Source: Lactarius indigo
Taxonomy: Eukaryota > Basidiomycota > Agaricomycetes > Russulales > Russulaceae
Length of the DNA: 64,000 bases
NCBI GenBank assembly: GCA_025766275.1
Contig: JAFKAC010000002.1
Coordinates: 62,001-126,000 of the forward strand
Direction of reading: 5' to 3'
The notes under the pieces were generated by a model. The model worked only from the letters and a program-made list of their open reading frames with translations, was not told the origin of the DNA and ran no database searches. Made by a program: the position numbers and the translations under genes. Of this stretch, positions 5,782 through 39,523 are shown one piece after another. The stretch's first letter is position 1; each line of letters opens with the position of its first letter.

Positions 5782-6221
5782 GTGGCTCTCACCAGCCAAA
5801 GCCGAACCAAGTTTGTCCAGGAATACCTGGAACGACACACCAACGACGACCTCCGATCTTCAATCAAAGGAACGGCCACTTGGAGGAACACTCCCCATGA
5901 CACAGGCTACTACATCTTCGACCCTGACAAAAACACCTACGAACCCATCGAATATATCAAAGATCAACACGTCTGGGCCTACGTCGCCTATTCAGACAAA
6001 AAGAACTCTTGGTATTCAATCAAACCAGTACCCGCATCTCTTGGGCTCAGACCAGGAAAAACCCGAATACAAGGCATCGACGTCGACTCTGACGTTGCAG
6101 AACCCAACTCAGACAGTGAAAACCCAGACCCCACTCTCACACCTACTATCACCAGAACAGTCGACTTCGCATCATATGCCAACATGTCCACCACCCAATC
6201 CCAACTCGCAACCACCCTCAC
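5782..6221 (+). pseudogene. Gypsy-A Gag, 5' part (split by gypsy-B)
   Basis: The frame opens with GTG in the context ACC-GTG-G and contains no ATG until codon 133. The first 110 or so codons hold the conserved N-terminal domain (GYY, then PIEYI, then W..V, then KPVP) shared with gypsy-B and, more distantly, with gypsy-C and -D. The last codon is interrupted at 6221; the frame resumes at 14204 after gypsy-B and its duplicated CTCAC, and the phase is exact (two bases before, one after). This shows that gypsy-B inserted into an open gag frame. Confidence 0.82.
6217..6221. repeat. Target-site duplication of gypsy-B (left copy)
   Basis: CTCAC precedes the 5' LTR and recurs at 14199-14203 right after the 3' LTR. 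Confidence 0.93.
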
Positions 6222-6504
6222 TGTTACAGACTGGACTTGTTTTCAACTTTACTTTAATTTCTTACTTACACTTGCGTTCGCGGGAAAGTCTTTCCTTTCT
6301 TGGTTTTCCCTTTTTCGGACTTGCGGCGCACTAGGAGCCTTAAGATTCTCTCCTAGTGCAAAGTGAGACAATGAGACACTCATTGTCCTTATTAGTCTTT
6401 ATTACTACTATACTTGGGCTAAATGCACCCTTTTATGGCAGGTGTCTCATTTCTATTTTTAACTTTGAGACATGTCTCACTTGCCTTTTATATCCTCGCT
6501 TCTT

Positions 6505-6633
6505 CTCACACTTACTGCGGATAGCTGTGCACACTTTCTTCTTTTTCCCGTGCCTGCTGCGGATTGCTGTACTTTCTTCTCACGCTTGCTGCGGATTGCT
6601 GTGTTACTTCTCACGCTTGCTGCGGATTGCGCC
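6505..6633 (+). repeat. Four imperfect direct repeats in gypsy-B U3
   Basis: Units of about 23 bp built on TTGCTGCGGATTGCTGT start near 6505, 6547, 6579 and 6611, ending 33 bp before the TATA box. The 3' LTR carries the same cluster at 13763-13891. Repeated U3 units often bind transcription factors in LTR elements; that role here is inference. Confidence 0.75.
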
Positions 6634-6665
6634 ATTTGTTTGTTCCGCACAAACAAACCCTTTTC

Positions 6666-6711
6666 TATATAAGTCGTGGCCCTAGGTAGCTTGTATCCTT
6701 AGACTCGACTT
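6666..6711 (+). promoter_or_regulatory. Gypsy-B TATA box and inferred transcript start / self-primer 11-mer
   Basis: TATATAA is at 6666-6672. AGACTCGACTT at 6701-6711 starts 35 bp downstream and pairs exactly with 6943-6953. Compared with gypsy-A, the change from CTAG to CTCG in the centre is matched in the binding site. Confidence 0.72.
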
Positions 6712-6942
6712 CTTTACCATCACAGTATACATTGTTTTCCCATTCCCTTGGGGTAACTCTCTACTGAACCGTCGAACCTCTTGAACCCCTGAACTCCTCT
6801 CACATCTTGAGTATTGTGTCATACTCTGAGATCCTTGTTAACCACTTAAACCTTGCCATTATCGGCTGAACCCTCGCTCATTGACATAGAAAGACCAGAC
6901 TTGCTCACGCCGAGCTGAACGTTCCTACTGTAACGTTACATT

Positions 6943-6953
6943 AAGTCGAGTCT
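6943..6953 (+). other. Gypsy-B self-primer binding site
   Basis: AAGTCGAGTCT begins two bases after the 5' LTR and is the exact complement of 6701-6711. Its distance from the LTR is the same as in gypsy-A, -C and -D. Confidence 0.74.
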
Positions 6954-6960
6954 CTCCACC

Positions 6961-8523
6961 CTGGCTTCAAAACTAGGAAGCAGGAGCCGTTCCCAGTTCA
7001 AACCAGAATTCATCACCAGAAGAACAGAAGACGATCTCTCTGACAACATCAAGGGAGTAGCCATCTGGAAAACCTACGACGAAACTGAAGGATATTACGT
7101 TTGGAGCAAAGAAGACAACGGATATATTCCTATTGAATACATAGAAGACAAACGACTTTGGGTAGTCATCGCACAATCAACCAAAGACCACAAGTGGTTC
7201 TCTGTCAAACCAGTACCACTAGAATTCGGACTTGGTCCATATAGAAACAACCCAGTTGGCATAGTTGTCGACTCAGATACAGAAGAACCTGCTCAGGATT
7301 CGGATCAACATCAATCCCCTGTTGCATCAGTGGAAGCTACGTCAGGTGTCCCCTCTTTAGCCCCACAAGAACCCATAGATTCAGGTGCTCGCACACCAAC
7401 AAACTCAAGCATTAGAATGACAAGCACAGCCACACAAATCAACACCTCAATCACCCACACCCCTAGTGGAGGTGGCAGTAGCAAAGGCGGAGGTGGAGGT
7501 GGAGGTGGAGGTGGAGGTGGAGGCGGTGGAGGAATCCCTGCTGGAAGAGCCCCACCTTTAGCCCCCCCTCCTGCCGGAGATAAATTAACAGGCCTACCAC
7601 CAAAAGAATTCACTGGAGACCGAGCCCACAGCAAGAAATTCCTAAAAGAGTTCACCTTCTACCGGGCCCTCAATGGATCAATCGAGCAAATGAGAAACCC
7701 CTATCTCAGATGCATTGTCTTCCTCTCCCTAATACGAGGAGACTTGGTTGATGACTGGGTTATGGAACAAAGTGACTGGCTTACTGATGAACTTGCTGGA
7801 GGACGGGCCACAACAGAAGAAGACCTGTGGATCACCATCCTAGATCGCTTCCAGGCTGCTTACACAGACGTTGCAGAGAAACAGAAGGCACAGAAGGCAC
7901 TCCAAGCAGTCAAAATGGAGAATGGAGACCTTGACACCTATATTGCTCAGTTCGCCGCCCTTGCAAAGAAGGCAGGATATGGTGCAGATGAAGAAGGAAC
8001 CCTGGATATTTTCTCACGGGGTCTACCTGAAAAACTGGTCAGGAACATCATACAGTTCGACCACCCAGATGACTGGAAAGAATGGACCCAATCAGCCAGA
8101 AAGCACCATCAAGACTTCATCAATCTCCAAAATCGCTTTGGGATCAAAAAGGAAACTAAAGCCGGATTCACAAAAGGGCAATGGAACAATGCCTTTAAAG
8201 TCAAACCACGTGACCCAAATGCAATGGACATAGGAAGAACTCAAAGAGGAGCTGCAGGAAGAGCAGCCCTCACTGAAACCGAAAAACAGAAGCTCCAAGC
8301 AGAAGGGCGCTGTTTCCGTTGCAAGAAACAGGGGCACATATCGCGAAACTGCCCTGACAAACCAGCCAAACTTGCAGAAGCATCAACTACACCCTCTGCA
8401 CCATCCACCACAAAGACCAAAGAGGAACTAGCAAATGAGATGTGGGGGACTCTGATGGCACAGAGTGAGGAAGTGCGAGCACTGCTCGTAGAGAAAGCCT
8501 TTGCTGAGAAGGATTTTTCGTAG
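6961..8523 (+). CDS. Gypsy-B Gag, probable non-AUG (CTG) start
   Basis: This is the capsid/nucleocapsid protein of the element. The frame opens at 6934, and a CTG at 6961 sits in an excellent context (CCACC-CTG-G). No ATG occurs in any frame from the inferred transcript start (6701) until 7417, where an in-frame ATG lies at codon 153. The segment before that ATG encodes a domain conserved in gypsy-A (GYY, PIEYI, W, KPVP), so it is evidently translated. Then come a glycine run (about 7480-7535), a retrotransposon capsid region, and a CX2CX4HX4C zinc knuckle (CFRCKKQGHISRNC, 8311-8352). The frame ends with TAG at 8521-8523, just after the slippery site. The choice of CTG over a spliced leader is inference; a short form from 7417 is also likely. 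Confidence 0.85.
   Translation: MASKLGSRSRSQFKPEFITRRTEDDLSDNIKGVAIWKTYDETEGYYVWSKEDNGYIPIEYIEDKRLWVVIAQSTKDHKWFSVKPVPLEFGLGPYRNNPVGIVVDSDTEEPAQDSDQHQSPVASVEATSGVPSLAPQEPIDSGARTPTNSSIRMTSTATQINTSITHTPSGGGSSKGGGGGGGGGGGGGGGGIPAGRAPPLAPPPAGDKLTGLPPKEFTGDRAHSKKFLKEFTFYRALNGSIEQMRNPYLRCIVFLSLIRGDLVDDWVMEQSDWLTDELAGGRATTEEDLWITILDRFQAAYTDVAEKQKAQKALQAVKMENGDLDTYIAQFAALAKKAGYGADEEGTLDIFSRGLPEKLVRNIIQFDHPDDWKEWTQSARKHHQDFINLQNRFGIKKETKAGFTKGQWNNAFKVKPRDPNAMDIGRTQRGAAGRAALTETEKQKLQAEGRCFRCKKQGHISRNCPDKPAKLAEASTTPSAPSTTKTKEELANEMWGTLMAQSEEVRALLVEKAFAEKDFS
8511..8517 (+). other. Probable -1 ribosomal frameshift site, gypsy-B
   Basis: G-GAT-TTT is in the Gag frame four nucleotides before the Gag stop. 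A -1 slip continues as F-V-G-S-N-P-A-A-W in the Pol frame, matching the Pol start of the other families. It resembles the GGATTTA site of MMTV. A GC-rich stretch with possible pairing (GGCTC / GAGC) follows. Confidence 0.65.
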
Positions 8524-11500
8524 GCTCGAACCCGGCGGCCTGGGCTAGAGCTTTAAACATTTCCAGTGTACAATATAGCCAATATAGATCCTTGAAAGTC
8601 CCTGTACACCTGGAAACTGCACACAAAACGGCCGATCAAGACGTCCTAGTAGACTCTGGAGCTACGGACAATTTCATAGACCCCAGACTCCTGAAACAAA
8701 TGGGGATAGGGACGATACCCCTGTCAAACCCAAAAAAGATCTGGAATATCGACGGAACCCTTAATAAAGCAGGAGAACTAACGGCATACTCCATGCTAGA
8801 TGTCCAATCAGGATCCAAGAAACTACCCATGAGATTCCTGGTGACAAATCTAGGGGAAGAACGAATGATCCTGGGATACCCCTGGCTCGCTGCCTTTGAA
8901 CCCCAATGCAACTGGAAGGACTCCACCATCGACACCAGTCACCTCCCTGTCATCATCACTACCCAAGGACTCCAAAAACAAGACACCCCCAAACCAAAGA
9001 TCCACATCCGGAAAATGTGGAGCACATTCCTGGAAGAATGTGGGTATGAGGAAGGAGATGAACTCTATCTCAGATTTACCCAAGATGAGGTCATTGGCAA
9101 AACCACGGTGGCCTCAGAATTGGCGCAAAAGGCACGAGATCAAACTGAAAGAACGCTAGAGGAAATGGTCCCCAAGGAGTACCTACAACATCAGAAGGTC
9201 TTCAGTGAAGAGAACTCCCACCGATTCCCACCAACCAGGTCATGGGATCACGCCATTGACCTCACTCCAAATGCCCCAGCCACTATTGATTGCAAAATAT
9301 ACCCTCTAACACGTGATGAAAATGAAGCCCTTACCAAATTCCTCAATGAACACCTTGAAAAGGGATATATCCAGCCCTCTAAATCCCCATACTCGTCTCC
9401 CTTCTTCTTCATCAAAAAGAAAGATGGAAAGCTTCGCCCTGTCCAAGACTACCGACGGATCAACCAGTACACTGTCAAGAATCGATACCCACTCCCCTTA
9501 ATCCCAGAATTGATTGACAAGGTCCGGGATGCGGCGTTGTTTACCAAATTTGATATCCGATGGGGTTATAACAACATCCGGATCAAAGAAGGAGATGAAT
9601 GGAAGGCGGCCTTCAAAACCAATCAGGGGCTGTTTGAGCCACGTGTCATGTTCTTTGGACTCACCAACTCGCCAAGCACATTTCAGACCATGATGAACGT
9701 AATATTCCGTGACATGCTCCTAACCGGAGAAGTCATAATCTACATGGATGACATCCTTATTGCCACTATTGATGACCTGGAAAGACACCGCAAGGTGGTC
9801 CATCAAGTTCTAGAACGCCTAGAGGAACATGATCTCTACCTAAAACCGGAGAAATGTGCCTTTGAGGTTAGGTCTATAGAGTACCTGGGCGTCATATTGG
9901 AAAAAGGGAGGGTCCGAATGGACCCGATTAAGGTTCAGGGTGTACGTGACTGGCCCACTCCAACAACAACCAAAGAAGTCCGTGCCTTTCAAGGATTTGC
10001 AAATTTCTATCGCCGCTTCATCCGAGGGTTCTCCATGATTGCCCGTCCCCTTAACAACCTACTCAAAAAGGACACCAAATGGGAATGGACGGAAGACTGT
10101 CAAAAGGCATTTGACACACTCAAGACCCTGCTTGGAAAGGAACCTGTGCTCATTCAACCGGATTTGGAAAAACAATTTGAATTGGAAGTGGATGCATCCC
10201 GATTTGCCAATGGAGGGGTGCTTTACCAAAAGGATAACCAAGGAATTCGCCACCCAGTGGCCTACTACTCCCAGACATTTGGACCAGCAGAACGAAATTA
10301 TGACATCTACGATCAAGAATTGCTAGCCATTGTGCGAGCTCTACGACACTGGCGGGCATATCTAGCAGGCTCCCCTCACAAGGTAGTGGTGTACACAGAC
10401 CATGCAAACCTCCAATATTGGAAAGAACCACACAAGATCAGCCGACGGGTAGCACGAGAAGTCCTGGAACTCTCCGAATTTGATATAGAGCTCCACCACA
10501 TTGCCGGCTCCAAGAATGCCCGGGCAGATGCCCTGTCAAGAAGACCAGACTATGATGATGGTTCCCATGACAACTCGGATGTAACAGTCCTTCCGGAAGA
10601 ACTATTTGTCAACGCTACAAGGGAACTGCCACAGGAACAAGAACTATGGGCTTATGTCACACAGAACCTAGACCAGGAACGTATCAAAACCTGGATAGAT
10701 ACCCACAACCTAAAAGAACACTCAGGGCTCCACTGGAAAGATGAGCGCTTGGTTGTTGCAGGGAACAACGACCTTAAGAGGGGGGTAATTCACGCTTTTC
10801 ATGACCTTCCAAGCGCTGGACACCCTGGAATTTCAAACACAATGGCTCTGATAACACGAGACTACTGGTGGCCTGGCATGAAGAAAGATGTGGAAGAATA
10901 TGTCAAAGGATGCGCAGCATGCCAAGCCAATAAAGTCAACACCCACCCAAAGAAGCCAAGCCTCTCACCCATTTTTGGACAGATGACAGAACCATTTGAA
11001 ACTGTCAGCATGGACTTCATCGTCAAATTACCCAAGTCAAAAGGCTATGACACAATCCTTACAGTCACAGATCACGATTGTTCAAAAGCAGCATTATTCA
11101 TCCCTTGCAACGAAACGATAGATGCAGCCGGAGTCGCACAACTCTATTTACAACACATCTACCGCCACTATGGCCTTCCCAAGAAGGTCATTTCCGATCG
11201 AGACCCACGATTCACATCAATGTTTGCAAGAGCCCTCTGCAAAGCCTTAGACATCAAACAGAACATCTCAACAGCATACCACCCACAAACAGATGGACAG
11301 TCAGAACGAACGAACCAATGGTTAGAACAATACCTAAGGTTTTGGTGTAATGCAAGACAGGATGATTGGGTAACCTGGTTACCAATGGCAGAATTTGCTC
11401 ATAACTCCTGGCCCAACGCTACAACCCGAATTCCCCCATTTGAACTAATCATGGGAAAACTCCCACGCACCACATGGACGCCAAAACCCTCCCCAGTTCC

Positions 11501-13442
11501 AAGTGTAGGACAACGTCTTGAAGAACTGAAGAACAAGAGAAAGGAAGCTCAGGACAACCTAAAGAAAGCACAAGATTCCCTAGCACGACGACCCTCCAAG
11601 TTTGAACCATACAAAGAAGGAGAAATGGTGTGGCTAGAAGGAACAAACATACGGACTAGCCATCCAACTGCCAAACTAGCTCCAAAACGACATGGACCCT
11701 TCAGGATTACCAAAGTCCTGTCACCGGTCAACTATGAACTCGCCCTACCCCTGCAATGGAAGATCCACCCTGTGTTCCATGCCAACCTACTTACACCATA
11801 TAGGGAAACACCGCTCCATGGAGAAAACTTCCCACGACCCCCACCTGACATAATAAATGGAGAAGAAGAATGGGAAGTAGAGAAAGTTCTAGACTCTGCC
11901 AAGAAGGGACGACGACGTAAACTCCATTACCTCATCAAATGGAAGGGCTTCCCTGACAGTGACAACTCGTGGGAACCGGAGGAAAATGTATCGGCCCCTG
12001 AAGCAATTCAAGACTTCTTCCGGCTACACCCAAATGCCGAAGGAGCGCCCTCCTCACATATAAGAAGTACAAGGTTGGAAGGAAAAGACCCCCACTCCCC
12101 TACTCTTACATCTTCTCACACAATGCCTTCTCGCTCCTCCTCTGTTGAAGCCCTCGTTGAACGCTCCATAGAACGAGGGTTCTTCTCTCGACCCCCAACC
12201 CCAGAACAACAGACCACCATGGATGTCAACCCTGCACTGGTTGCGCTGTTGGAAACCTTCAATGGACATCCCAACTTAGTCCCAAGATCCTCCTTGTCTC
12301 CCCCTCCCGAACCAACCGCCACTCCTCCTCCACTCCCTCCTTCCACCCCTCCTCCTGACTCTCCCCCGGTCTCTGTGATTTCCCACTCATCAATGCCTCC
12401 ACTGGAGGATGCCCCTATCAACTATGAGCGGGTAGCTGCCACTGCCAACGATGAACCGGACGAAGATGACGACCACCCAGGCCTCCCCTTCTTCCCAAAC
12501 ATAGAAACCTCAGCTCGCTTCCACCCTCTCTATATCAACCAGCCTGATGGCACTAAAGTCTTAGCAAAGTACATCGCCTACACCAGTAACCGTCAAGATG
12601 TCAAGGGTTGTATGGGCCGAGGTCAACCAGTCTATGGAGAGCCGGTGTACCTGGATAGTCTCCCAGGAGCCATGCCACAAGTCATGTCAGATGATCAGAT
12701 GCAGCAACTCTCACGTGACGACCCGCGGGCATATGCCGTAGATGAGGCCCTGAGGGACCTCAACTCCCCACAGCTAGATGCGGAGGTCTCTCGCCTTCGC
12801 AACTGTTTGGAACAGCGGGCTACGCTCCAGAGGCAGTTCACTGATCTGCAGGCTCAATGCAATCGAGTCCATGGACTACTGTTCAACACCACCTCAGAAC
12901 TGGATGGAGTGCGCAGTCGGCTGGAAGCCGCACATGCCTATACCCGGATTGCAGAACACTATGCTGACACATGGCAGCAACCTCGCCTCTTCCGCCACCA
13001 AGACCTTCCCTTTCCCCCTCGCCCTGGAGGACCTGTAGAGATGCCCCGCCTCCGGGAAAATCGCAACGGAGACCTGTGCTGGCGCTGTGACAGTCGCTTC
13101 CATCGCAGCTTCAACTGTCCTCGGACCAAGCGGTACTGTTACCATTGCCAGAGTGCAGGTCACTGGCCCAACAAGTGCCTATGGCGTCGGCTTGAAGAAC
13201 AACCAGGAGAAGAAGATGCTGCCAACAAGTGGTGTGGCAAGTGTTTTAGGAACGACCCTGGACATGCCGAGATCCGCTGCCCTGTTTATGAGCAGTGCTG
13301 GAAGTGCGGAGTTCGCGGACACTTCCAGTTCCTTCGCACTCATCGCTGCCGGGAGGTCATTGCGGAGAACTATAACTCTGATTGGGTTGACGATGATCTC
13401 GTACAGACTGATGACCCTGAGCCTGGCACAGATCGTTTCTAG
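8517..13442 (+). CDS. Gypsy-B Pol with chromodomain and a C-terminal zinc-finger extension
   Basis: This is the Pol part of a Gag-Pol fusion, in the -1 frame relative to Gag, 1641 codons without a stop. Order: retropepsin DSGATDNF (8652); reverse transcriptase with YMDD (9741-9752); RNase H; integrase with an HHCC zinc domain (GHPG then CAAC near 10820-10925) and catalytic D, D, E (near 11013, 11200 and 11305); the GPY region; and a chromodomain (about 11866-12040, YLIKWKGF and WEPEEN). After it come about 465 further residues: a proline-rich linker, a YGEPVY / LNSPQLDAEVSRL domain, a coiled coil, and four zinc motifs at about 13077-13350 (two CX2CX4HX4C, one CX2CX6HX4C, one CX2CX11HXC). The chromodomain should target integration to modified chromatin; the extension has no known role to me. 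All catalytic residues seem present. Confidence 0.95.
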   Translation, partial: FVGSNPAAWARALNISSVQYSQYRSLKVPVHLETAHKTADQDVLVDSGATDNFIDPRLLKQMGIGTIPLSNPKKIWNIDGTLNKAGELTAYSMLDVQSGSKKLPMRFLVTNLGEERMILGYPWLAAFEPQCNWKDSTIDTSHLPVIITTQGLQKQDTPKPKIHIRKMWSTFLEECGYEEGDELYLRFTQDEVIGKTTVASELAQKARDQTERTLEEMVPKEYLQHQKVFSEENSHRFPPTRSWDHAIDLTPNAPATIDCKIYPLTRDENEALTKFLNEHLEKGYIQPSKSPYSSPFFFIKKKDGKLRPVQDYRRINQYTVKNRYPLPLIPELIDKVRDAALFTKFDIRWGYNNIRIKEGDEWKAAFKTNQGLFEPRVMFFGLTNSPSTFQTMMNVIFRDMLLTGEVIIYMDDILIATIDDLERHRKVVHQVLERLEEHDLYLKPEKCAFEVRSIEYLGVILEKGRVRMDPIKVQGVRDWPTPTTTKEVRAFQGFANFYRRFIRGFSMIARPLNNLLKKDTKWEWTEDCQKAFDTLKTLLGKEPVLIQPDLEKQFELEVDASRFANGGVLYQKDNQGIRHPVAYYSQTFGPAERNYDIYDQELLAIVRALRHWRAYLAGSPHKVVVYTDHANLQYWKEPHKISRRVAREVLELSEFDIELHHIAGSKNARADALSRRPDYDDGSHDNSDVTVLPEELFVNATRELPQEQELWAYVTQNLDQERIKTWIDTHNLKEHSGLHWKDERLVVAGNNDLKRGVIHAFHDLPSAGHPGISNTMALITRDYWWPGMKKDVEEYVKGCAACQANKVNTHPKKPSLSPIFGQMTEPFETVSMDFIVKLPKSKGYDTILTVTDHDCSKAALFIPCNETIDAAGVAQLYLQHIYRHYGLPKKVISDRDPRFTSMFARALCKALDIKQNISTAYHPQTDGQSERTNQWLEQYLRFWCNARQDDWVTWLPMAEFAHNSWPNATTRIPPFELIMGKLPRTTWTPKPSPVPSVGQRLEELKNKRKEAQDNLKKAQDSLARRPSKFEPYKEGEMVWLEGTNIRTSHPTAKLAPKRHGPFRITKVLSPVNYELALPLQWKIHPVFHANLLTPYRETPLHGENFPRPPPDIINGEEEWEVEKVLDSAKKGRRRKLHYLIKWKGFPDSDNSWEPEENVSAPEAIQDFFRLHPNAEGAPSSHIRSTRLEGKDPHSPTLTSSHTMPSRSSSVEALVERSIERGFFSRPPTPEQQTTMDVNPALVALLETFNGHPNLVPRSSLSPPPEPTATPPPLPPSTPPPDSPPVSVISHSSMPPLEDAPINYERVAATANDEPDEDDDHPGLPFFPNIETSARFHPLYINQPDGTKVLAKYIAYTSNRQDVKGCMGRGQPVYGEPVYLDSLPGAMPQVMSDDQMQQLSRDDPRAYAVDEALRDLNSPQLDAEVSRLRNCLEQRATLQRQFTDLQAQCNRVHGLLFNTTSELDGVRSRLEAAHAYTRIAEHYADTWQQPRLFRHQDLPFPPRPGGPVEMPRLRENRNGDLCWRCDSRFHRSFNCPRTKRYCYHCQSAGHWPNKCLWRRLEEQPGEEDAANKWCGKCFRNDPGHAEIRCPVYEQCWKCGVRGHFQFLRTHRCREVIAENYNSDWVDDDLVQTDDPEPGTDRF
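12120..13442 (+). other. Post-chromodomain extension module of gypsy-B Pol
   Basis: This region is homologous to the separate third ORF of gypsy-A and -E and to the tail of gypsy-C Pol. Shared points are an ALxERxI-like start, a Pro-rich linker, a DDDHPGLPFFP / DDPGAPFFP motif, Y-G-x-x-V-Y-L, LNSPxLxAEVxRL and a coiled coil. The zinc array is shared with A and E only. Here it is fused directly to the chromodomain. Confidence 0.8.
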
Positions 13443-13466
13443 GGACGTCGAGGCGACAAGGACTCT

Positions 13467-13479
13467 GAAGGGAGGGTAA
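13467..13479 (+). other. Gypsy-B polypurine tract
   Basis: The purine-rich GAAGGGAGGGTAA directly precedes the 3' LTR, where plus-strand DNA synthesis is primed. A GGGGTAA end is shared with gypsy-A and gypsy-E1. Confidence 0.8.
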
Positions 13480-14198
13480 TGTTACAGACTGGACTTGTTT
13501 TCAACTTTACTTTAATTTCTTACTTACACTTGCGTTCGCGGGAAAGTCTTTCCTTTCTTGGTTTTCCCTTTTTCGGACTTGCGGCGCACTAGGAGCCTTA
13601 AGATTCTCTCCTAGTGCAAAGTGAGACAATGAGACACTCATTGTCCTTATTAGTCTTTATTACTACTATACTTGGGCTAAATGCACCCTTTTATGGCAGG
13701 TGTCTCATTTCTATTTTTAACTTTGAGACATGTCTCACTTGCCTTTTATATCCTCGCTTCTTCTCACACTTACTGCGGATAGCTGTGCACACTTTCTTCT
13801 TTTTCCCGTGCCTGCTGCGGATTGCTGTACTTTCTTCTCACGCTTGCTGCGGATTGCTGTGTTACTTCTCACGCTTGCTGCGGATTGCGCCATTTGTTTG
13901 TTCCGCACAAACAAACCCTTTTCTATATAAGTCGTGGCCCTAGGTAGCTTGTATCCTTAGACTCGACTTCTTTACCATCACAGTATACATTGTTTTCCCA
14001 TTCCCTTGGGGTAACTCTCTACTGAACCGTCGAACCTCTTGAACCCCTGAACTCCTCTCACATCTTGAGTATTGTGTCATACTCTGAGATCCTTGTTAAC
14101 CACTTAAACCTTGCCATTATCGGCTGAACCCTCGCTCATTGACATAGAAAGACCAGACTTGCTCACGCCGAGCTGAACGTTCCTACTGTAACGTTACA
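13480..14198 (+). repeat. Gypsy-B 3' LTR
   Basis: A 719-bp copy of 6222-6940 with no difference that I could see, followed by the CTCAC duplication. Confidence 0.96.
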
Positions 14199-14341
14199 CT
14201 CACCCAGTCAGGAAGCGGCCAACCCAGTGGAGGAACGTCCTCCTCTACGGCTGCTCCAAGTGGTGGAGGACATCCTATGGGAGGAAGTGCGCCAGCAGGC
14301 GGAAGCGGCCCTCTGGGAGGCTCAGGAAGCCATCATGGAGG

Positions 14342-21881: not shown

Positions 21882-22604
21882 GTGGCCGCAACCACCAGAG
21901 ACCAGTGGATGACCTTTCGTCCTTACTCACTACCTAGAAGAGGAGATCGCAACGTACCAACTCACTTTCTAGGAGCCACTTGTTGGTGGGAAGGTGAAGA
22001 AGAAACAGGATATTTTGTAGAATTTAATGGACCTACAAGGTTCCAACCAGTTGAGTTCAACTTCAATTGATTGTGTTGGACAGAGGTTATGTGGAACCCG
22101 ATAGACTCCCACTGGGACGTAGTACGACCAGCCAGACCAAGGTATCAGTGTGACATCAATGCACGCGAACTGAATAGCAGAGCAGATTGGGGTCCTATTG
22201 ATGGACAACTGCGAGAACACTCTATGGGAGAAGCAATAACAGAAGATACCAAGCAAAGCGAGGAAGAAGAGGGACACCAACAACCAGATCAGACTGAGAG
22301 CAGTGGAGGGGCAATACAAGAACTCCTTATCAAATGAGCTGAGTCCGCCCATATCACAGAACCAGAACCAATTCACATATGATCACCAGCACTCATGGCT
22401 ACAATCACGCAAACAATGGAACAAGTGGCAGTTGAAGAAACACGTGCCATACACCAAGAAGCACAAGAGATCCTCATGCCCACCAACCCAGAAACTGGCG
22501 TACAAATGACCGCCAATGACACCGCAATTTTCAGAGCAATAGGGTCAGATCGAGGAGACCCCCGTCAGGAAATGGGGGGCACCCAGTCCTAGAACTACCC
22601 CCAG
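21882..22604 (+). pseudogene. Gypsy-D Gag N-terminal fragment
   Basis: The frame starts GTG-GCC in the context ACT-GTG-G, as in gypsy-C, and is closely similar to gypsy-C Gag (ETGYFVEFNGPTRF, then RADWGPIDGQ, then DRGDP). TGA codons at 22068-22070, near 22335 and near 22381 replace arginine or acidic codons of gypsy-C. It is cut at 22604 by gypsy-C and continues for a short way at 30475-30546. Confidence 0.85.
22600..22604. repeat. Target-site duplication of gypsy-C (left copy)
   Basis: CCCAG here and at 30470-30474 bracket the element. Confidence 0.92.
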
Positions 22605-23156: not shown

Positions 23157-26100
23157 TCACCGAAAGTCGCGAGCCGGCCAGTCGCGCTGCTCGTCTGCAA
23201 TGCGCTCTAAGGCGGTAGCACGCTCCAGGCGGTAAATGGCGTCACGCCGGTCGTCCTGCACGCACTCGATCATCGCGCGGAGTTGGCTCACCCTTGCCCG
23301 AAGTTGATCCAGCTCGTAGCTGGCCGCGCGGAAGCACGTGACCTCCGCGGTGAGCGACTCGTCGTTAATGCGATTGAGCGCACAGTTGGTGATCTTGTCC
23401 GCTTCGAAGACGACGAGGTCTTCGTGCGGGTATGTGGGGCGGAGCGCGGCGGACACGTGGGGCTCAGCGTAGAAGGGCTTACCGTAAACGTGTGGTGAGC
23501 CCGGTATAACCCCTAGTATAAGGGGGTCTGCCCCTCCAATGATTTGGACGTGCGACGCGTCCCTCTCTACTCCGTCCGGCCCGGTGATGGGGTATCGAAT
23601 GTAATGGGGTCGTCGGTTCGCCCGGAACCCTTCAGGCGCAATGACATGTGCGGGGTCCTCAGCGGCGGTGAACGGATGGTGATTGGCGGCACCAGGCACG
23701 CGCACACGTCCTCGATACATGGGGGAGCCGTCGGTGTAGACGAGCCAGGGCGTGACGAGGGGATTATCAGGGTCACGTTTCGTTCGAAGGAAGGGGTGTC
23801 TCGCCGGGTAATAATCTTCGTTGTCATGGCCAGCTTCAGCTGCCGCCATTGCTGCCGATGCTCGCGCATCTCCCTCAGTCGGGCCGCTGCTGAGTCCAAC
23901 TGCTCCTTCTGCCACGCTGCCGCTACTCTCTTCCAGCCCTCCAACTCGTACTCCATCAGCGCTTGAACGCTGGTCGTTGCTCGGGAAAACTCCGTGAACG
24001 CCGATGAGGTCGTCGCTTGGGGGGATAGCGGCGATGGGTTCTTGCTCACCGCGATCGTTTCGGAAGACGTGGACGACGGCTTGGTCGTCGTCGGGAGTAG
24101 TTGTTGGGTCTGGGAATCTGGTGATGACGTTGATCCATTCTTGTGCGGTGATGGGCCCCTCTGCTGGTGCAAGAGGCGTCCATGGTGTGAGCTGAGTGTT
24201 TGGAACTTCGGTGTTGTCGTCCTCAGCCAAGAGGGCGCGGGCGTCTTCTGCGAGGGAGTCAAGGAGTTGCGCTTGTGTGACATGTCGCAATGGAGAGGTG
24301 GGCATGTGAGTAGTGGCTGAGCGAAGGAAGAGGGGGTTACTGTCCTCCGTTCGAACGACCCCCACTTTATCCCTTTTGCTGTGAGCCCGCGTTTCCTGAT
24401 ACAGGTGGAGTGCTTCTGGTGCAAAGACGTCATCCTTATTGACCCACTGATTCTCCGAGTCTGGGTATCCCTTCCATTTGATAAGGTATTGGAGGCATCT
24501 TCCTCTGCCGAAGTGCCGAGTGTCTAGAATGGCCTCGACCTCGTATTCCTCTTCTCCATCTATCAATTCGGGCGGTGGTCATGTGAAGTTCTCCCCATGC
24601 AAAGGGGTCTGCTTGTACGGGGTGAGAAGATCGATGTGAAACACTGGGTGGATGCTCCACTGCGTGGGAAGTTCCAATCGATAGTTGTAAGGGGACATCA
24701 CCTGTGTTACCCAAAAGGGTCCATGGCGTCGCGCCGCTAATTTTGCCGTGGGCTGATTGGTCCGAAGATGCTTGCCCTTGAGCCACACGAGGTCATTGAC
24801 GTTGAACTTGGGCGTATCTTTGTTGCGCACCCATGACTCTTGCGCCTTCTTTAGAAGGCGTTGGGCGTTGTTTCTAGCTTCTTTCAGCTGCTTCAGTCTC
24901 GCGGTTATGAGGGGAATCGGGGATGGCTTATCAGTCCAATCCGCTTGAGGGTCATATCCCATCAGAAGTTGAAACGGCGACTGCTTCGTATGCTCGTGGG
25001 GCCAGTTATTATGCACGAATTCGGCGATTGGTAGATACGCAGTCCAGTTATCTTGACGCTCGTTCACCCAGAAGTGTAAGTACTGTTCCAGCCATTGGTT
25101 AGTCCTTTCCGATTGCCCATCGGTGCGTGGGTGGTACGCCGTCGATATGTTTTGCTGGACCCCTAGGATTCGGCATGCCTCCCTCGTGAATTTGGACGTA
25201 AATCGCGGGTCGCGATCGCTGATGATTTTACGTGGTAATCCGAATCATTTGAAAACGTGACTGACATACAATGCAGCAGTTTCCTCCACCGTTATTTCCT
25301 CTCGGCAGGGTATGAACACCGAGGCTTTACTACAATCGTGGTCAGTGACGGTGAGGATGCTGTCGTACCCTTCCGATACTGGTAGTTTGGTGATGAAGTC
25401 TATTGCCACGGTGTGGAAGGGGAATGCGTCGAGCATAGGCGTGATGGGGTATAGAGCCGCACATATGGGGCGCGTGTTGACTTTGTTTCGTTGGCATTCG
25501 GCACATCCTTGAACGTACTCATACACGTCCCTTCGTAATTGTGGCCACCAGTAATGTCTTTCCAGGATCCGTTGCGTCCTCGCGATTCCAGGGTGCCCGT
25601 GTATGGGTAAGTCGTGATGATCGTGAATCAGTACGCGATGCGTCGAGGCTGGTCCCGTTATAATGAACCTGCCATCCTTATACCATTCTCCTTGTATCTT
25701 CTTTAGTCGGTGGGGGTCTGCCCACACCTTGATCACTTCTTCGTCTTGTTGATGTCGCGGTTGCAGTAGGTTCGGGTTGAGGGTCAATGTTTTTGCCGTG
25801 TTGAGGGTTCGGACAAAGATTTCGGGTGGCAGTACCACAACTTCACTGTTGTCCTCTATTCCTTGATCGTAGTCAGGTCGTCGCGACAGTGCGTCGGCCC
25901 TTCCGTTATTTTTCCCTTTGATGTGGTGAATCTCGAAGTCGTATTCGGAGAGTTCGAGTACTTCCCTTGCAACTCGCTTACTGATCTTCTGCGGCGACTT
26001 CCAGTATTGTAGGTTTAGGTGATCTGAATAGATTTTGATTTTGTGTGGGGCTCCCGCTAGCAGCGGCCTCCAGTGTCTTAGGGCCTTGACTATCACGAGT

Positions 26101-27877
26101 AGTTCTAGGTCGTAGATGTCGTAATTTCGTTCTGCTTCCGAAAGTGTTGCCGAGTAATAGCCTATGGGGTGCCGTTTTCCGTCAGACTTTTCTGTAGCAG
26201 TACGGCTCCCACCGCGTAGCCTGAGGCGTCCACCTCCAATTCGAATGGGTCCTGGAGGACAGGGTGTGCCAATACCGGTTCTTCGGTTACGAGGTGTTTG
26301 AGTGTGTTGAATGCCTTGTCCTCCTCTTCTGCCCATCGCCATTCTTCGTCTTTGCGTGTCAACTTTGTGAGCGGTCTGGCATGGGTTGCGAAGCCGCGGA
26401 TGAAAAGCCTGTAAAAGTTACAGAAGCCAAGAAAAGATCGGATGTCTTTGACTTTTGTTGGTGTCGGCCAGTCTTTGATGCCTTGGACTTTTACAGGGTC
26501 CATTCGGGTCACCCCCCTCTCAAGGATTACCCCCAGGTAATCCATACGTGGCTGATGGAACAGGCACTTCTCGAGCTTAAAGTAGAGGTCGTGTTCCTGC
26601 GCAACCCTCAGGACATCGCGGACAGCAGCGATATGGGCCGGTAGATCGTGATCAAAGTGAGTAGCAATCCCAATGTCATCCATGTAAACACGTATCGTGG
26701 TGCCCAAGCGTTCGTGCTTCGCTATCGTGTCGCGATAGATATGGTTCATCATGGCCTGGAAGGTCGCGGGTGAGTTGGTGAGTCCAAAGAACATGACTGT
26801 TGGTTCGAAAAGGCCAAATTTGGTTTTGAATGCCGCTTTTTCTTGATCCCCGTCACAGATTCGGACGTTGTTATAGCCCCATCGGATATCTAATTTTGTG
26901 TAAATATGGGCGTTGCTGAGGTCAAGTATCAGGTCCTGGATGAGTGGCAACGGGTACTGGTTGCGGATGGTGTGAGAATTGATGACCCTATAGTCCTGAA
27001 CGGGTCGCAGCTTTCCGTCCTTCTTTTTGATGAAGAAAAAGGAGGATGCGTACGGGGAGATAGAGGGGCGTAAATACCCCTGCTTCAACTTTTCTTCGAG
27101 GAACTCTTTAAGCTCACTTTCTTCCTTTTGCATCATGGGATACACTTTGCAGTCTATTGCGGCCGGCGCAGATGGTTTGAAGTCTATCGCATGATCCCAT
27201 GGTCTGGCCGGGGGAAAGCAATGCGACGCTTGCTCATTAAATAGCATGTGAAACATGGCATATTCCGCTGGAAGTGTGACCGCGGTTTGCTGCTGTTTCG
27301 CCTGTATGGCCAACTCCGTCGAGGTGGTGGCCCTAGCGAACGTTTCTTCCTCTAGTTCTCGTACGATATCTTCCTTTTCGGTTGTGATTAGAGCTCGAAC
27401 GACCGACGTGGAGAGTAGGTCTTCAGTGATAGCCAGTATCACTGGTTGCATGTTGGGGTGCATGGTTGCCATAGCCCAGCTGATGGTGGGTTCAAAGGCA
27501 CTCAGCCATGGATAGCCAAGCACCATGTCTTCGCTACCGAGGTCGGTGACCAAAAAGGTCATTTTCTTTATCTGTCCTCATGTCTTCACTTCTAGGTTAA
27601 CATAATGAGTGATTAACCCAGCTTTGTTTTCCGTGTTATCGATATTCCATATCTTGCGAGGTGTTTCTAAAGGCTGCACTGGGATGCTGGCTCGTGCTGC
27701 CGTACTTGGTCGGATAAAGTTGTCGGTCGCTCCAGAGTCGACCAACGCATGTGTTTCAGTCGTTTGGTAATTCGTTTTGACAGTCACTGGGATTCGCAGA
27801 GATCGGTAGCGCGTTGTCACAATTACAGAATTACATTGTAAAGCCCTCACCCAGACTGACGGGTTCAGGCGTCCCGA
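23157..27877 (-). pseudogene. Gypsy-C Pol with fused C-terminal extension, four lesions
   Basis: This is the -1 frame after Gag: retropepsin DSGATDNF (near 27735), reverse transcriptase with YMDD (near 26685), RNase H, integrase, the GPY region and a chromodomain (near 24430-24540, YLIKWKGYPDSENQW). Lesions are TGA at 27578-27580, a lost A in the run at 26188-26191 that shifts the frame, TGA at 25245-25247 and TGA at 24579-24581. All three TGAs fit CGA (Arg). After the chromodomain the frame runs on for about 380 codons with a Pro-rich part, VYGKPFY, ESLTAEV and a coiled coil. It is homologous to the gypsy-B extension but ends before any zinc motif. Confidence 0.9.
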
Positions 27878-29928
27878 AAACCCTCTTTTCCCCACAGGTC
27901 TTGGAGTATGAGGTCTTTTACCTCATCCGTGCTATTAGCCACCTGCGTGAGCCACTCTTTCGCCTGTTCTCCAGCTGTTTTTGTGCTTGCCGCGTTAATT
28001 TGAGGCGCAGGTGTTACGCTCGGTGCCGGTGACATGTATCCCGGCAGCGATGGTGCATACTGCGAAGGTGCGTATTGTGATACGGGTCCTTGGGGGTACC
28101 TGGTAGTTTCGGTCATGCGGCTGATGGATGGAGCGGCCGGCCATGGTTGTTGGGCGCGTGGATGTGGACAATTCCATGAGAGGTGTCCTGGAGCGTGACA
28201 ATTATAGCAAAGGACGTTCCTTAAGTCCCTTCGAGATCCTCCTCTTCCTCGTCCCCTGGCTCTGGGTCCTCCTCGTGGTGGAAATGGCGGCGTGGGCCAG
28301 TTGTGATGCAGTAGTTTGTTAAAATCGATGTCTTCAGATCCTGCTAGTCTTACTTTAGCGCGGTCGGCTGAAGTGTCCATTGCCCAGGGGTTAGTTTGTG
28401 GTAGGTTTTGTGGAAGCGTCCATCCTGCATTGCCACCTTGTTTCTTCGGCTGCGTTGTCGTGCTTTTGTACTCGTTGAGCCTTGCTTTGAGGTGTATGTA
28501 ATTCTTCTGCCGCTTGAGGACGGCTCTTTTCCAGTCATCGAACGTGACAGGGTCATTGAATTGGAATGCGTTTTTGAAGAGTTCCTTGGGCAAGCCCGAC
28601 GTAAAGAGGTCGATGGTTTGTGGTTCATTGAGGTGGTAATGAGCCTTCCGCGCGAGCTGCTCGAAATCATTGACGTACTTGTCAATGTCCTCTCCTATCA
28701 TTTTGAATCCCTTTCGTAGTATTGCTTGCGCCTGCTCCCGTTCCAGCGTGTTTTCAAATCGCTGGCTGAAACCGTCGGCTACGGCGTCCCACAAGTTTCG
28801 AGTGTAGGGGCTAATCCCTCGTTGTATTTGTCTGTTGAGCCAGTTTAGGAAGGATAGTACCCATTCGCTGACCGCTCCGCCCTTGATGTAGGAGAGAAAC
28901 AGAAGGCATCTTCTGTAATCATTGCGCATGATAGGGGCGTCCAGGTTCATACCCCAGTAGACATGCCACTGCGTCAGGAATTGGTCTACTTTGAGTCTGT
29001 CTCCATCAAAAATGGAAGGTGGCTCGCTGGTTAGTTTCTCATTATGATGTCCTCCTCCTCCGACGTCCCCGCCACCTCCACCTCCTCCTCCGCCTCCGCC
29101 GGGCAATCCAGCGGGCGGTCCTCTCGGCGGCTCGGTTCTTCGTATGTCAAACGGGATACCTCCGCCCGGTGGTGGCAGCGGGTCTCCGCTTGGTCCTCCC
29201 ACACCTGGAGGGAGTTCCAATACAGGTCGTTGTCCGGATGGAGGGTCTCCTCGATCTGATCCTATTGCTCGGAATATAGCGGCGTCGTCTGCCGTCATTC
29301 GTACGCCAGTTTCGGGGTTGATAGGCATGAGGATTTCCCTTGCCTCAGCTTGTATTGCGCATGCTTCCTCGATCGCGACTTCTTCCATGGCCTGCGTCAA
29401 TGTTGCCATAATAGCTGGCAATCGGATGTGAATTGGTTCGGGTTCTGTGATGTGTGCGGACTCAGCTCGTTCAAGGAGGAGGTCTTGTATGGCTCCTCCG
29501 CTAGTCTCCGTCTGATTCGGTTCTCGTCCTTCGTCTTCTTCTTGGCTTTGCTCTTCTTCGTCTCTTTCTGATACTACTTCTCCGGTAGAGTGTTCTCGTA
29601 CTTGCCCGTCGATAGGGCCCCAATCAGCTCGACTATTGAGCTCTCGTGCGTCGATATCACAGTGATATCTGGGTCCGGTTGGTCGTATAGCGTCCCACTG
29701 TGAATCTATGGGATTCCACGTAACTTCTACCCAACACAAGTGGTCGAAGTTAAACTCAACTGGGCGGAACCTAGTAGGTCCGTTAAACTCGACAAAGTAT
29801 CCGGTTTCTTCCTGTCTTTCCCTCCAACTGGCAGCTTGTAAAAAGCGCGTGGGGACGTTTCGTTCTCCTCTCCTTTGGATCAAATATGGACGGAAGCTCG
29901 TCCACTGGTCTCTTGTTGTTACGGCCAC
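27865..29928 (-). CDS. Gypsy-C Gag, probable non-AUG (GTG) start
   Basis: An open frame of 687 codons starts at GTG in the context ATC-GTG-G, 20 bases after the LTR. No ATG exists in any frame from the inferred transcript start (30178) to 29410; the first, at 29409-29407, is in frame at codon 174. The N-terminal part before it is conserved with gypsy-D and shares the GYF, PVEF, W..V, W..IRP pattern with A and B. Downstream are Pro/Gly-rich segments (polyglycine near 29080), the capsid region, an RG-rich stretch and a CX2CX4HX4C knuckle (CYNCHAPGHLSWNC). It ends with TGA at 27865-27867, after the slippery GGGTTTT. An alternative is a spliced leader supplying an AUG. Confidence 0.85.
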   Translation of the reverse strand: MAVTTRDQWTSFRPYLIQRRGERNVPTRFLQAASWRERQEETGYFVEFNGPTRFRPVEFNFDHLCWVEVTWNPIDSQWDAIRPTGPRYHCDIDARELNSRADWGPIDGQVREHSTGEVVSERDEEEQSQEEDEGREPNQTETSGGAIQDLLLERAESAHITEPEPIHIRLPAIMATLTQAMEEVAIEEACAIQAEAREILMPINPETGVRMTADDAAIFRAIGSDRGDPPSGQRPVLELPPGVGGPSGDPLPPPGGGIPFDIRRTEPPRGPPAGLPGGGGGGGGGGGDVGGGGHHNEKLTSEPPSIFDGDRLKVDQFLTQWHVYWGMNLDAPIMRNDYRRCLLFLSYIKGGAVSEWVLSFLNWLNRQIQRGISPYTRNLWDAVADGFSQRFENTLEREQAQAILRKGFKMIGEDIDKYVNDFEQLARKAHYHLNEPQTIDLFTSGLPKELFKNAFQFNDPVTFDDWKRAVLKRQKNYIHLKARLNEYKSTTTQPKKQGGNAGWTLPQNLPQTNPWAMDTSADRAKVRLAGSEDIDFNKLLHHNWPTPPFPPRGGPRARGRGRGGSRRDLRNVLCYNCHAPGHLSWNCPHPRAQQPWPAAPSISRMTETTRYPQGPVSQYAPSQYAPSLPGYMSPAPSVTPAPQINAASTKTAGEQAKEWLTQVANSTDEVKDLILQDLWGKEGFRDA
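27877..27883 (-). other. Probable -1 frameshift site, gypsy-C
   Basis: On the minus strand G-GGT-TTT is in the Gag frame, a canonical X-XXY-YYZ heptamer, four codons before the Gag stop. The -1 product S-G-R-L-N-P-S-V-W is collinear with Pol of the other families. Gypsy-I has the same heptamer. Confidence 0.7.
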
Positions 29929-29934
29929 GATGGT

Positions 29935-29945
29935 ATCTTGGTCTT
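29935..29945 (-). other. Gypsy-C self-primer binding site
   Basis: On the minus strand AAGACCAAGAT starts two bases after the 5' LTR and pairs exactly with the 11-mer at 30168-30178 in the LTR. Confidence 0.72.
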
Positions 29946-30106
29946 AATGTAACGTCGTCACGATGTTAGCTCGACTTGAGCTCGGTGGAGGCGATAACAA
30001 CTTAGCAAGTAGCTTGAAGACGCGAAGGTCCAAGTTTATCCGAGGTGAATACACGAAGGTACACCTAATAGATTTGCTGTCTTGTGTCACGAGTAAAGTC
30101 GGACTT

Positions 30107-30107
<1 letters not shown>

Positions 30108-30136
<29 letters not shown>
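30108..30136. repeat. (GA)n microsatellite in the gypsy-C 5' LTR
   Basis: Same GA run as in the 3' LTR. It lies in the transcribed leader (CT-rich in the RNA). Confidence 0.95.
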
Positions 30137-30141
<5 letters not shown>

Positions 30142-30167
30142 AAGAGAGAAACAAGTGACGATTCAAG

Positions 30168-30212
30168 AAGACCAAGATGGCGTATCTTGGTCTTCACAAG
30201 ACAGATTAAATA
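30168..30212 (-). promoter_or_regulatory. Gypsy-C TATA box and inferred transcript start / self-primer 11-mer
   Basis: On the minus strand TATTTAA (30212-30206) is followed 34 bp on by ATCTTGGTCTT (30178-30168). Just upstream lies its complement, separated by five bases, so the start site sits in an 11-bp-arm inverted repeat. Confidence 0.7.
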
Positions 30213-30474
30213 CAAGTTGAGCAGGCTTTCAAGCGCTGCTATGAGTCACAGTATGGTAGCGTCCGACGTATCGCGTAAGTAGCTCAAATCCTAATACTAC
30301 TACTACTAGTATTAGTGGTGTAGTCCTCAGTCAGTGATCAGTGCGTAATCTCCTATCGTGCTCGTATCGCCTATCGTAAGTCCGCAACTAATCTACCTTA
30401 CTGCCGTAGTTGCAACCAGTACAGTAAGGGTCCTTAGTCGTATACCGCAGTACAAGTGGAAACGTGACACCCAG

Positions 30475-30546
30475 GAATAGGGGGACCAGGAGAAGACCCA
30501 CCACCACCACCAGGATGAGGAGTCCCATTTGACATACCAAGGGGAC
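30475..30546 (+). pseudogene. Gypsy-D Gag continuation
   Basis: After gypsy-C the gypsy-D frame resumes with PGIGGPGEDPPPPPG, a TGA, then GVPFDIPRG, matching the Pro/Gly region of gypsy-C Gag. It is cut at 30546 by copia-F. The rest of gypsy-D is absent from the window. Confidence 0.75.
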
Positions 30547-38172: not shown

Positions 38173-38742
38173 TGTTGATAAGTGACCCTTGCGCACTTAG
38201 CGGCTCGTACGGACCGGACTTGCAGCATGGACTGCTTTAGATTAGATATACAGGACTTGTAGATTAGATACTATTTGATCTGTACAATCTGGACTTACCA
38301 TTGCGTCATCTATGACATCACTGTACTTCCATGACATCATACATCCGGACTCTGCGTTGTATAACGCTTTTGTACTTCTCATTGTTCTTTATTTAGTATT
38401 ATCTTTATTATGATGTCAGTATGATATCATCTAGTTCTGGACTCTCCTTGTTCTCCTTTCCCTTGTTCTCAAAGCGTCCACTCTTTTGTCTCTTTGTAGA
38501 ACAATAGCACCCTTGTATTCTGTGACTAGCGTTACTTACCTTGTACTACTGTCACCCTCTGTAGGAGTATAAGTAGAGTACCATGTACACTCCTGGTCCA
38601 CATCAGTTCTCACTGTTTGTGTGCCAGACACCTTCTGCTTCACTGCTTGACATTCCCCTCTGCTGCTAACCAGCTTGCCACTAGTATCTCACCACAGACT
38701 CTTTGCCTCTGTGAGTACTGGTTCTGTCTATGCTGTTCATCA
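38173..38742 (+). repeat. Copia-H 5' LTR
   Basis: It starts TGTTGATAAG and ends TTCATCA. A TATAA lies at 38568-38572. A shorter solo copy of the family is at 57519-57954. Confidence 0.94.
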
Positions 38743-38754
38743 GGTTATGGGCCC
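38743..38754 (+). other. Copia-H primer binding site, half-tRNA-iMet type
   Basis: GGTTATGGGCCC directly after the LTR, as in copia-F. Confidence 0.83.
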
Positions 38755-39523
38755 TGGTGCCCTAGCCACTCCACTTGGCTGGTCACTGTCTTCCTAGGAG
38801 GACACACCAGGCTAAGGTCTGTCTGGGGCCTTACCAGCCTTGCCCAAGGCAGAGAGCAGTGGGGCGCCACTTGTCTCTGCTAAGGAACCTCCTGTGTATG
38901 TACTGCCCAGTAGTCCTACTTTCACCCCTACTGTTTTCCTAGCCCCTGCGCTATGCGCAAGGAGACTGGGTCTGGTAGCCCCTTAACTTCAAAATATCCA
39001 GGCGTGCATGGCCCACTGGGCTGTGTATTGTGGAGCTTAGCGCCAGCTGTCTCTGGTGCTCCACACTGGGCGCAGGATCTCCTCACCATGGGAGTGTAAA
39101 ACCTGGTTCAGGCTCTGGGGGGTGTTCACCTTATGGTGTTCTGCAACCAGATACCTGCCTTGTAGCGGCAATGGGAAAGGATTCAGTAAAGCCACTTGTG
39201 GCGATGAGGCAACCAATAGGCCAAGGAGGCTGAGGTAGACAGCCTTGGGCTCTGAAAGCATTCCCTCCACTTTCCCCCTGACGCAAACCATTTGAGCTGT
39301 GTCCTAGACACATCCTGGCTGGCAGCTAGCTCATGGTATGGCAAAGGGATTCCTTCAACCTGGGCCTAGCCCTTGTATCACTGGCATACTATCAGGAGGC
39401 AGGACGCGTTAGCGTTCTGGCCTTACAGATTCACAGACAGGAGTGGTATCCCCTCTATCTTTGTCTTGCAAACTATGAAGCACTATCGCTGACTGCTCCT
39501 CGGCGATAGATTAAATCATCCCA
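38755..39523 (+). other. Copia-H leader
   Basis: 769 bases before the Gag ATG. Several short ORFs exist, but none looks like a gene. The length is large for a copia leader. Confidence 0.5.

Follow-up and report, generated by a model that had tools for sequence, protein, structure and literature searches.

In the way they appear to work, the systems closest to the element described here are the glyco-Gag of murine leukemia virus (MLV) and PEG10. The respective reports describe an in-frame CUG upstream of the MLV Gag AUG in the context accCUGg, with a ribosome density on the extension of 6.7% of that on gag; few reads covered the CUG, and additional starts close to it are suggested (PMC5778647); the MLV extension contains a signal peptide (PMC3542737). 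For PEG10, CUG and downstream in-frame AUG starts are reported from mutagenesis (PMC2800197). In the fungal cpc-1 mRNA the leader exceeds 700 nt and a conserved in-frame extension lacks any in-frame AUG; its near-cognate starts are described as demonstrated in vitro (PMC5487733). In Tf1, the first 11 RNA bases are reported to pair with the primer-binding site (PBS; PMC7175516).

The stretch of DNA analyzed here (64,000 nt, hereafter the window) holds the LTR retrotransposon gypsy-B, which carries, as MLV does, a strong-context in-frame near-cognate codon upstream and the Gag AUG downstream, in the same context as in MLV. Since its extension has no signal peptide, gypsy-B does not belong to the MLV kind: neither a membrane segment nor a signal peptide is found in the extensions of six family representatives, where the highest 19-residue mean hydropathy is 0.21 to 0.49. 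GUG is commoner in the elements here than the CUG of MLV, and the two are likened by proposed mechanism, not by sequence relation. PEG10 is likewise Gag-derived (Ty3/gypsy type, in mammals) and has CUG and AUG starts, but it is a host gene with an extension of 34 residues, whereas we describe a family of mobile elements with extensions of 134-174 residues across families. The likeness to cpc-1 lies in the long fungal mRNA leader and the conserved in-frame extension; cpc-1, however, is a regulator of the host, with several near-cognate codons as well as AUG uORFs, whereas gypsy-B has one fixed NTG and no AUG ahead of the Gag AUG. With Tf1/sushi self-priming elements, which belong to the same Ty3/gypsy superfamily, gypsy-B shares 11 bases complementary to the PBS; the available sections of PMC7175516 make no mention of a near-cognate Gag start such as the one proposed here. 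Among the matches listed from the open-licence literature, none names a fungal LTR element whose Gag begins at a near-cognate codon. If true, our reading would add such a case, and the many natural copies with two codons in six families of one genome would lend themselves to studying the upkeep of a near-cognate start.

Organization of gypsy-B and its ATG-free interval

The features of gypsy-B and of the related elements in the window are as follows.

6222-14198, + strand: gypsy-B element, sitting in gag of an older gypsy-A
6222..6940, + strand: gypsy-B 5' LTR, exact direct repeat with the 3' LTR
13480-14198: gypsy-B 3' LTR, identical to the 5' LTR
6666..6673, + strand: TATA-like box TATATAAG, from the sequence
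6701..6711, + strand: putative transcript 5' end and self-primer, reverse complement of the PBS
6701..6960, + strand: ATG-free leader, by ATG count
6943..6953, + strand: primer-binding site (PBS), complementary to 6701-6711
6961..6963, + strand: CTG in ACC-CTG-G, proposed as a near-cognate start from genome copies and the homologous NTG
6961..7416, + strand: 152-codon N-terminal extension of the proposed long Gag, ATG-free in all frames
6988..7236, + strand: part of the extension predicted by AlphaFold2 to form a folded core (about residues 10-92, with five strands)
7417..7419, + strand: first ATG, in frame, proposed short Gag start; matching ATG in 103/103 copies
7417..8523, + strand: short Gag (Pfam)
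8508..13442, + strand: gypsy-B pol with RT, RNase H, integrase and chromodomain (Pfam), in the -1 frame relative to gag
5782..5784, + strand: gypsy-A homologous start codon GTG (ACC-GTG-GCT)
5782..6183, + strand: gypsy-A extension, in-frame ATG at 6184
29410..29928, - strand: gypsy-C extension, first codon GTG 29928-29926, internal ATG 29409-29407
21882..22481, + strand: decayed C-like extension copy (tblastn), also with GTG as first codon

Gypsy-B is a Ty3/gypsy LTR retrotransposon (chromovirus), as seen from its LTRs, the order of reverse transcriptase, RNase H and integrase, and the chromodomain after integrase. Pfam matches in pol comprise RVT_1 (residues 302-464), RNase H (552-658), H2C2 (754-810), rve (827-926, just below cut-off) and Chromo (1122-1171), and protease matches are weak. 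The short Gag carries a Retrotrans_gag match at 7819-8028, just below the Pfam cut-off, and a CCHC knuckle at 8308-8355, just above it. The CTCAC pair at 6217-6221 and 14199-14203, at either end of the element, is the 5-bp target-site duplication from the insertion of gypsy-B into the gypsy-A gag. Gag and pol overlap at 8508-8523, pol being read in the -1 frame; inspection by eye showed no standard slippery heptamer, and the first 64 pol codons contain no Met.

A direct count bears out that gypsy-B has no ATG in any frame over the 716 nt from 6701 to 7416, and that the first ATG, at 7417, lies in the Gag frame at codon 153 counting from CTG 6961. The sequence-only reading had expected about 11 ATGs, a figure that holds for equal base use only; base composition predicts 9.7, and dinucleotide shuffles average 8.1, with 1 shuffle in 5000 free of ATG. 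Taken by itself, the leader (6701-6960) is weak evidence, with a shuffle mean of 2.6 ATGs and P of 0.04, while the extension (6961-7416) is strong, with a mean of 5.4 and P of 0.0006. The longest + strand ATG gap in the window is 6472-7417 (945 nt), followed by gaps of 547 nt (the other LTR copy) and 339 nt. On the - strand, the longest gap (29407-30526, 1119 nt) spans the gypsy-C leader and extension; the second (25684-26334, 650 nt) falls inside the gypsy-C pol region, so a long ATG gap alone is weak evidence. The copia element of the same window (38202-39524, with its ATG start at 39524) has 11 ATGs in the 781 nt from the 5' LTR to the codon preceding the first in-frame ATG, and ATG-free leaders are thus no general habit in this window.

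The stretch directly past the 5' LTR, 6943-6953, has an exact reverse complement in the 11 nt of 6701-6711. This self-primer is present in 7/8 B copies and in 98/103 copies overall, and in those 98 copies, from six families, it lies 230-290 nt upstream of the NTG. TATA-like stretches precede the putative start in one representative from each of the five other families. A transcript start at 6701 is supported, though not proven, by these sequence features, and the self-primer kept upstream of the NTG in so many copies argues against a start further downstream, near 7400.

The proposed start-codon site and ATG avoidance across copies

The window is part of a genome of 90.3 Mb in 291 contigs, in which copies were sampled. 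Of 107 loci, 103 were counted: B 8, A 27, A2 20, A3 3, C 33 and C2 12, the names A2, A3 and C2 being coined in this analysis. Four loci were excluded, namely L100-L102 (P0007-like, decayed) and L009, which contains the gypsy-A copy of the window itself and matched gypsy-B best. Two loci fetched for family A (L035, L036) were counted under C by best match, and their A sites read GTG. Twelve older B copies are reported apart from the 103.

Codon 1, placed by a locator that favors NTGGC close to where tblastn aligns, is NTG in 103/103 sampled copies (CTG 8, GTG 90, ATG 5), with A at -3 in 102/103, G at +4 in 103/103 and Ala as codon 2 in 103/103. CTG is found in 8/8 sampled B copies and is kept in 12/12 older ones, and gypsy-A and gypsy-C have GTG, not CTG, at the homologous site. 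Exact patterns searched genome-wide with this flank give CTG in 44/44 for B, and 110 GTG, 4 ATG and 0 CTG or TTG for the A type; the C and C2 patterns were searched without the first base of the codon, so that their 277 and 188 matches do not distinguish the codon. In the five copies with ATG at the site (L034, L044, L048, L056, L104) a C precedes, as expected if CGTG decayed to CATG. The third base of codon 1 is invariant in every family, whereas fourfold third bases vary at 36/51 codons in A, 42/49 in A2, 34/40 in C (one of the 33 copies being dropped by the identity filter), 27/44 in C2 and 19/44 in A3; in B only 1/48 varies, which is uninformative for the constancy of codon 1.

The spacing from PBS to NTG is 20-29 nt, and the shifts right before the NTG are not multiples of three. 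The earlier statement that the frame opens with CTG needs correcting, in that the open frame already runs from 6934, nine codons ahead of CTG 6961. Because the spacing varies in this way, those nine codons are not frame-conserved. In six representatives, the leader holds zero to three NUG or ACG codons with a purine at -3 and G at +4. None with A at -3 occurs in the A, A2, A3 and B leaders, while the C and C2 leaders have one TTG each with A at -3, near the RNA 5' end; the proposed start is therefore the earliest of these codons to have A at -3 in A, A2, A3 and B, though not in C and C2. At 29-38 nt ahead of the proposed start, the A, A2 and A3 representatives have an out-of-frame GTG (G at -3, G at +4); a similar ACG lies at -30 in the C representative. 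A stem-loop aiding near-cognate initiation, sought 12-72 nt past the start codon in the six representatives, was not found.

ATG avoidance extends beyond the window. In 98 pooled copies, ATGs number 310 in 21094 bases upstream of the start (14.7 per kb), 20 in 24985 in the leader (0.8 per kb), 51 in 43966 in the extension (1.2 per kb) and 265 in 25996 past the internal ATG (10.2 per kb), the last 10 nt ahead of the internal ATG being omitted in A, A2 and A3. In these three families an out-of-frame AUG comes first, 8 nt ahead of the in-frame AUG, and its context is weak (49/50 have C at both -3 and +4). With this ATG disregarded, 56/98 copies with a recognizable start are ATG-free up to the internal AUG (B 7/7, A 9/25, A2 11/19, A3 1/3, C 19/32, C2 9/12). 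The ATG-free interval recurs in many copies and does not hold for all: 42/98 have at least one ATG, many of them with an open extension, and the strays that were classed are mostly of CpG type.

Synonymous shuffles of 91 open copies give 281.8 expected out-of-frame ATGs, against 39 observed (B 0 vs 25.5, A 14 vs 48.2, A2 11 vs 54.3, A3 1 vs 7.8, C 11 vs 104.4, C2 2 vs 41.6). All 91 fall below their own shuffle mean, though as related copies they are not 91 independent tests. Run on one representative per family, this test reaches significance at 0.05 in four of six (A, B, C, C2) but misses it in A2 (0.10) and A3 (0.066). The 12 plus six representatives used for the shuffle, codon and fold tests were chosen after the ATG lists, with ATG-free copies favored; the pooled densities, the 56/98 count and the 91-copy shuffle test take in all copies.

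The stray ATGs are mostly attributable to CpG decay. In the 12 older B copies they occupy nine positions, eight of which are ACG in a young copy and the ninth, +378, ACA. In A, A2, C and C2, 42/46 strays are of CpG type, classed in the extension only and in copies with the family's commonest extension length. The window copy of gypsy-A has an out-of-frame ATG at 5897 where other A copies read ACG. Family representatives retain 9-17 ACG and no ATG, so that mutation would feed ATGs into the interval and selection would remove them.

As a separate observation, ATG gains at CpG sites occur in older A, A2, B, C and C2 copies, which suggests methylated CpG decay there. The out-of-frame ATG of A, A2 and A3 lies at NTG +394 (for example at 6176 in the window), and in family A it opens a frame overlapping Gag, often of 122-139 codons.

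The extension and the proposed two forms of Gag

The extension is under purifying selection. Within five families (A3 was not computed) pN/pS is 0.05-0.11, pairs of unequal length being skipped (94 pairs in C, 16 in C2); between families, five of the six pairs have a dN/dS of 0.05-0.31, and the sixth pair is saturated. An open extension is present in 91/103 copies, 88 of which have no Met after codon 1, and the in-frame internal ATG, at 7417 or in the matching region, is present in 103/103; in two of these, one from C and one from C2, a further in-frame ATG precedes it. The lengths from NTG to internal ATG, multiples of three by way of measuring, cluster at 402, 405/411, 456 and 513-525. Among the elements of the window, the claimed conservation is clear in gypsy-A and gypsy-C; for gypsy-D it is unconfirmed, as only the distal part is detectable (58940-58737, - strand, tblastn).

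In the AlphaFold2 prediction, a small beta domain leads into a linker of low confidence, which is probably disordered. Ten-residue mean pLDDT is 90-96 for residues 11-90 of the B extension, with model strands at 35-39, 42-49, 54-61, 66-73 and 78-84; those of the C model take nearly the same positions (34-38, 41-47, 54-60, 65-72, 77-83). No trusted structure match was found for the extension models in the PDB, nor for the B model, the only one searched, in BFVD (viral structures). Pfam gives no match on the B extension, and the matches shown by a PDB profile search lie mostly on the glycine-rich linker and are uninformative about the extension. The low pN/pS, the homologues and the confident predicted core support the earlier claim that the extension must be translated. 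As a guess, it may serve in particle assembly or in targeting a minority of subunits, if the two forms have separate roles.

We consider it likely that weak CUG/GUG initiation yields a long Gag, and leaky scanning to the AUG a short one. In gypsy-B, a putatively self-priming element, the mRNA would begin at about 6701, and scanning ribosomes would encounter no AUG over 716 nt. A minority would start with Met-tRNAi at CUG 6961 (ACCCUGG) and produce a long Gag of 520 residues, while the remaining ribosomes would scan through the extension and start at AUG 7417, producing a short Gag of 368 residues. Selection would hold the start near-cognate and purge AUGs in all frames from the cap to 7417, by which the ratio would be kept. 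Families A, A2, A3, C and C2 would use the same device with GUG. The two forms of Gag put forward by the sequence-only reading gain support from comparison only, through a homologous CTG/GTG site in six families and through database relatives that have V-A or M-A as their first residues there. A review puts CUG, GUG and similar codons at 2-30% and states that leaky scanning follows from this, with initiation at an AUG further downstream (PMC3542737); for Neurospora cpc-1, the near-cognate starts are put at less than 1% of AUG activity in vivo (PMC5487733), from which the long Gag might be very scarce.

If the long Gag took its AUG from another 5' exon, spliced on or alternative, the NTG would be an ordinary codon. 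In 8/20 A2 copies the site reads CACAG-TGGCT, where a CAG acceptor followed by TG could make A-TG; copies of A, B and C, however, read at the site without AG right before the TG. As there is no ATG in 6472-7417, an AUG exon would sit upstream of the putative transcript start, and since the PBS spacing changes phase between copies, a single upstream exon would not be in frame with all of them. The third base and strong context of codon 1, kept in every family, would also be needless for an internal codon, and we hold such an exon to be very improbable. Translation from AUG 7417 only, with the extension as a relic or a conserved RNA structure, finds some footing in the leader, which in the six representatives folds more stably than block shuffles (z -2.0 to -3.4), and pairing between R and the PBS requires structure. 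Against it stand the pN/pS of the extension, its protein homologues and its confidently predicted core, which make this explanation barely credible.

The opposite case, in which the CUG/GUG-started long Gag is the main or sole product, the internal Met is a mere residue and ATG avoidance has another cause, draws on the strong context and on a frame that is open throughout Gag, and the start of the short form is likewise unproven. Out-of-frame ATGs are avoided as well, however, and the in-frame ATG is kept in every copy although the linker that holds it aligns poorly between families. Both are expected if ribosomes scan through, and we judge a long Gag alone quite unlikely.

Relatives beyond this genome

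Protein relatives share about 43-50% identity over Gag. Eight database Gag proteins have V as their first residue in this place or close to it, six with V-A (P0001, P0012, P0021, P0045, P0053, P0057) and two with V-P (P0027, P0029), and their next Met is at residues 134-194; gene callers accept such starts when no ATG is near. P0046 and P0063 are also V-started, yet further upstream. Five proteins read M-A at the site (P0002, P0003, P0005, P0032, P0070). Their M is ambiguous, because a GTG at the reference start is rendered as M, and it may stand for ATG or for another start written as M. The pattern is fitted less well by P0021, which has Mets at 142, 156 and 162; P0002 has a Met at residue 110, within the extension, and P0004 and P0031 start with M about 12 residues into the extension. 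The DNA of these relatives was sought in the genome contigs and viral contigs collections, with no match.

On balance, we lean toward a fungal Ty3/gypsy lineage, reaching beyond this genome, in which a fixed GUG or CUG past the PBS would set the ratio of two Gag forms and AUGs would be purged in every frame, the minor form carrying a domain of unmatched fold that AUG-only annotation misses. The protein P0011, annotated in Lactarius indigo, has the extension deep in its interior (residues 611-812), and an AUG-less start may explain mis-joined gene models such as this one.
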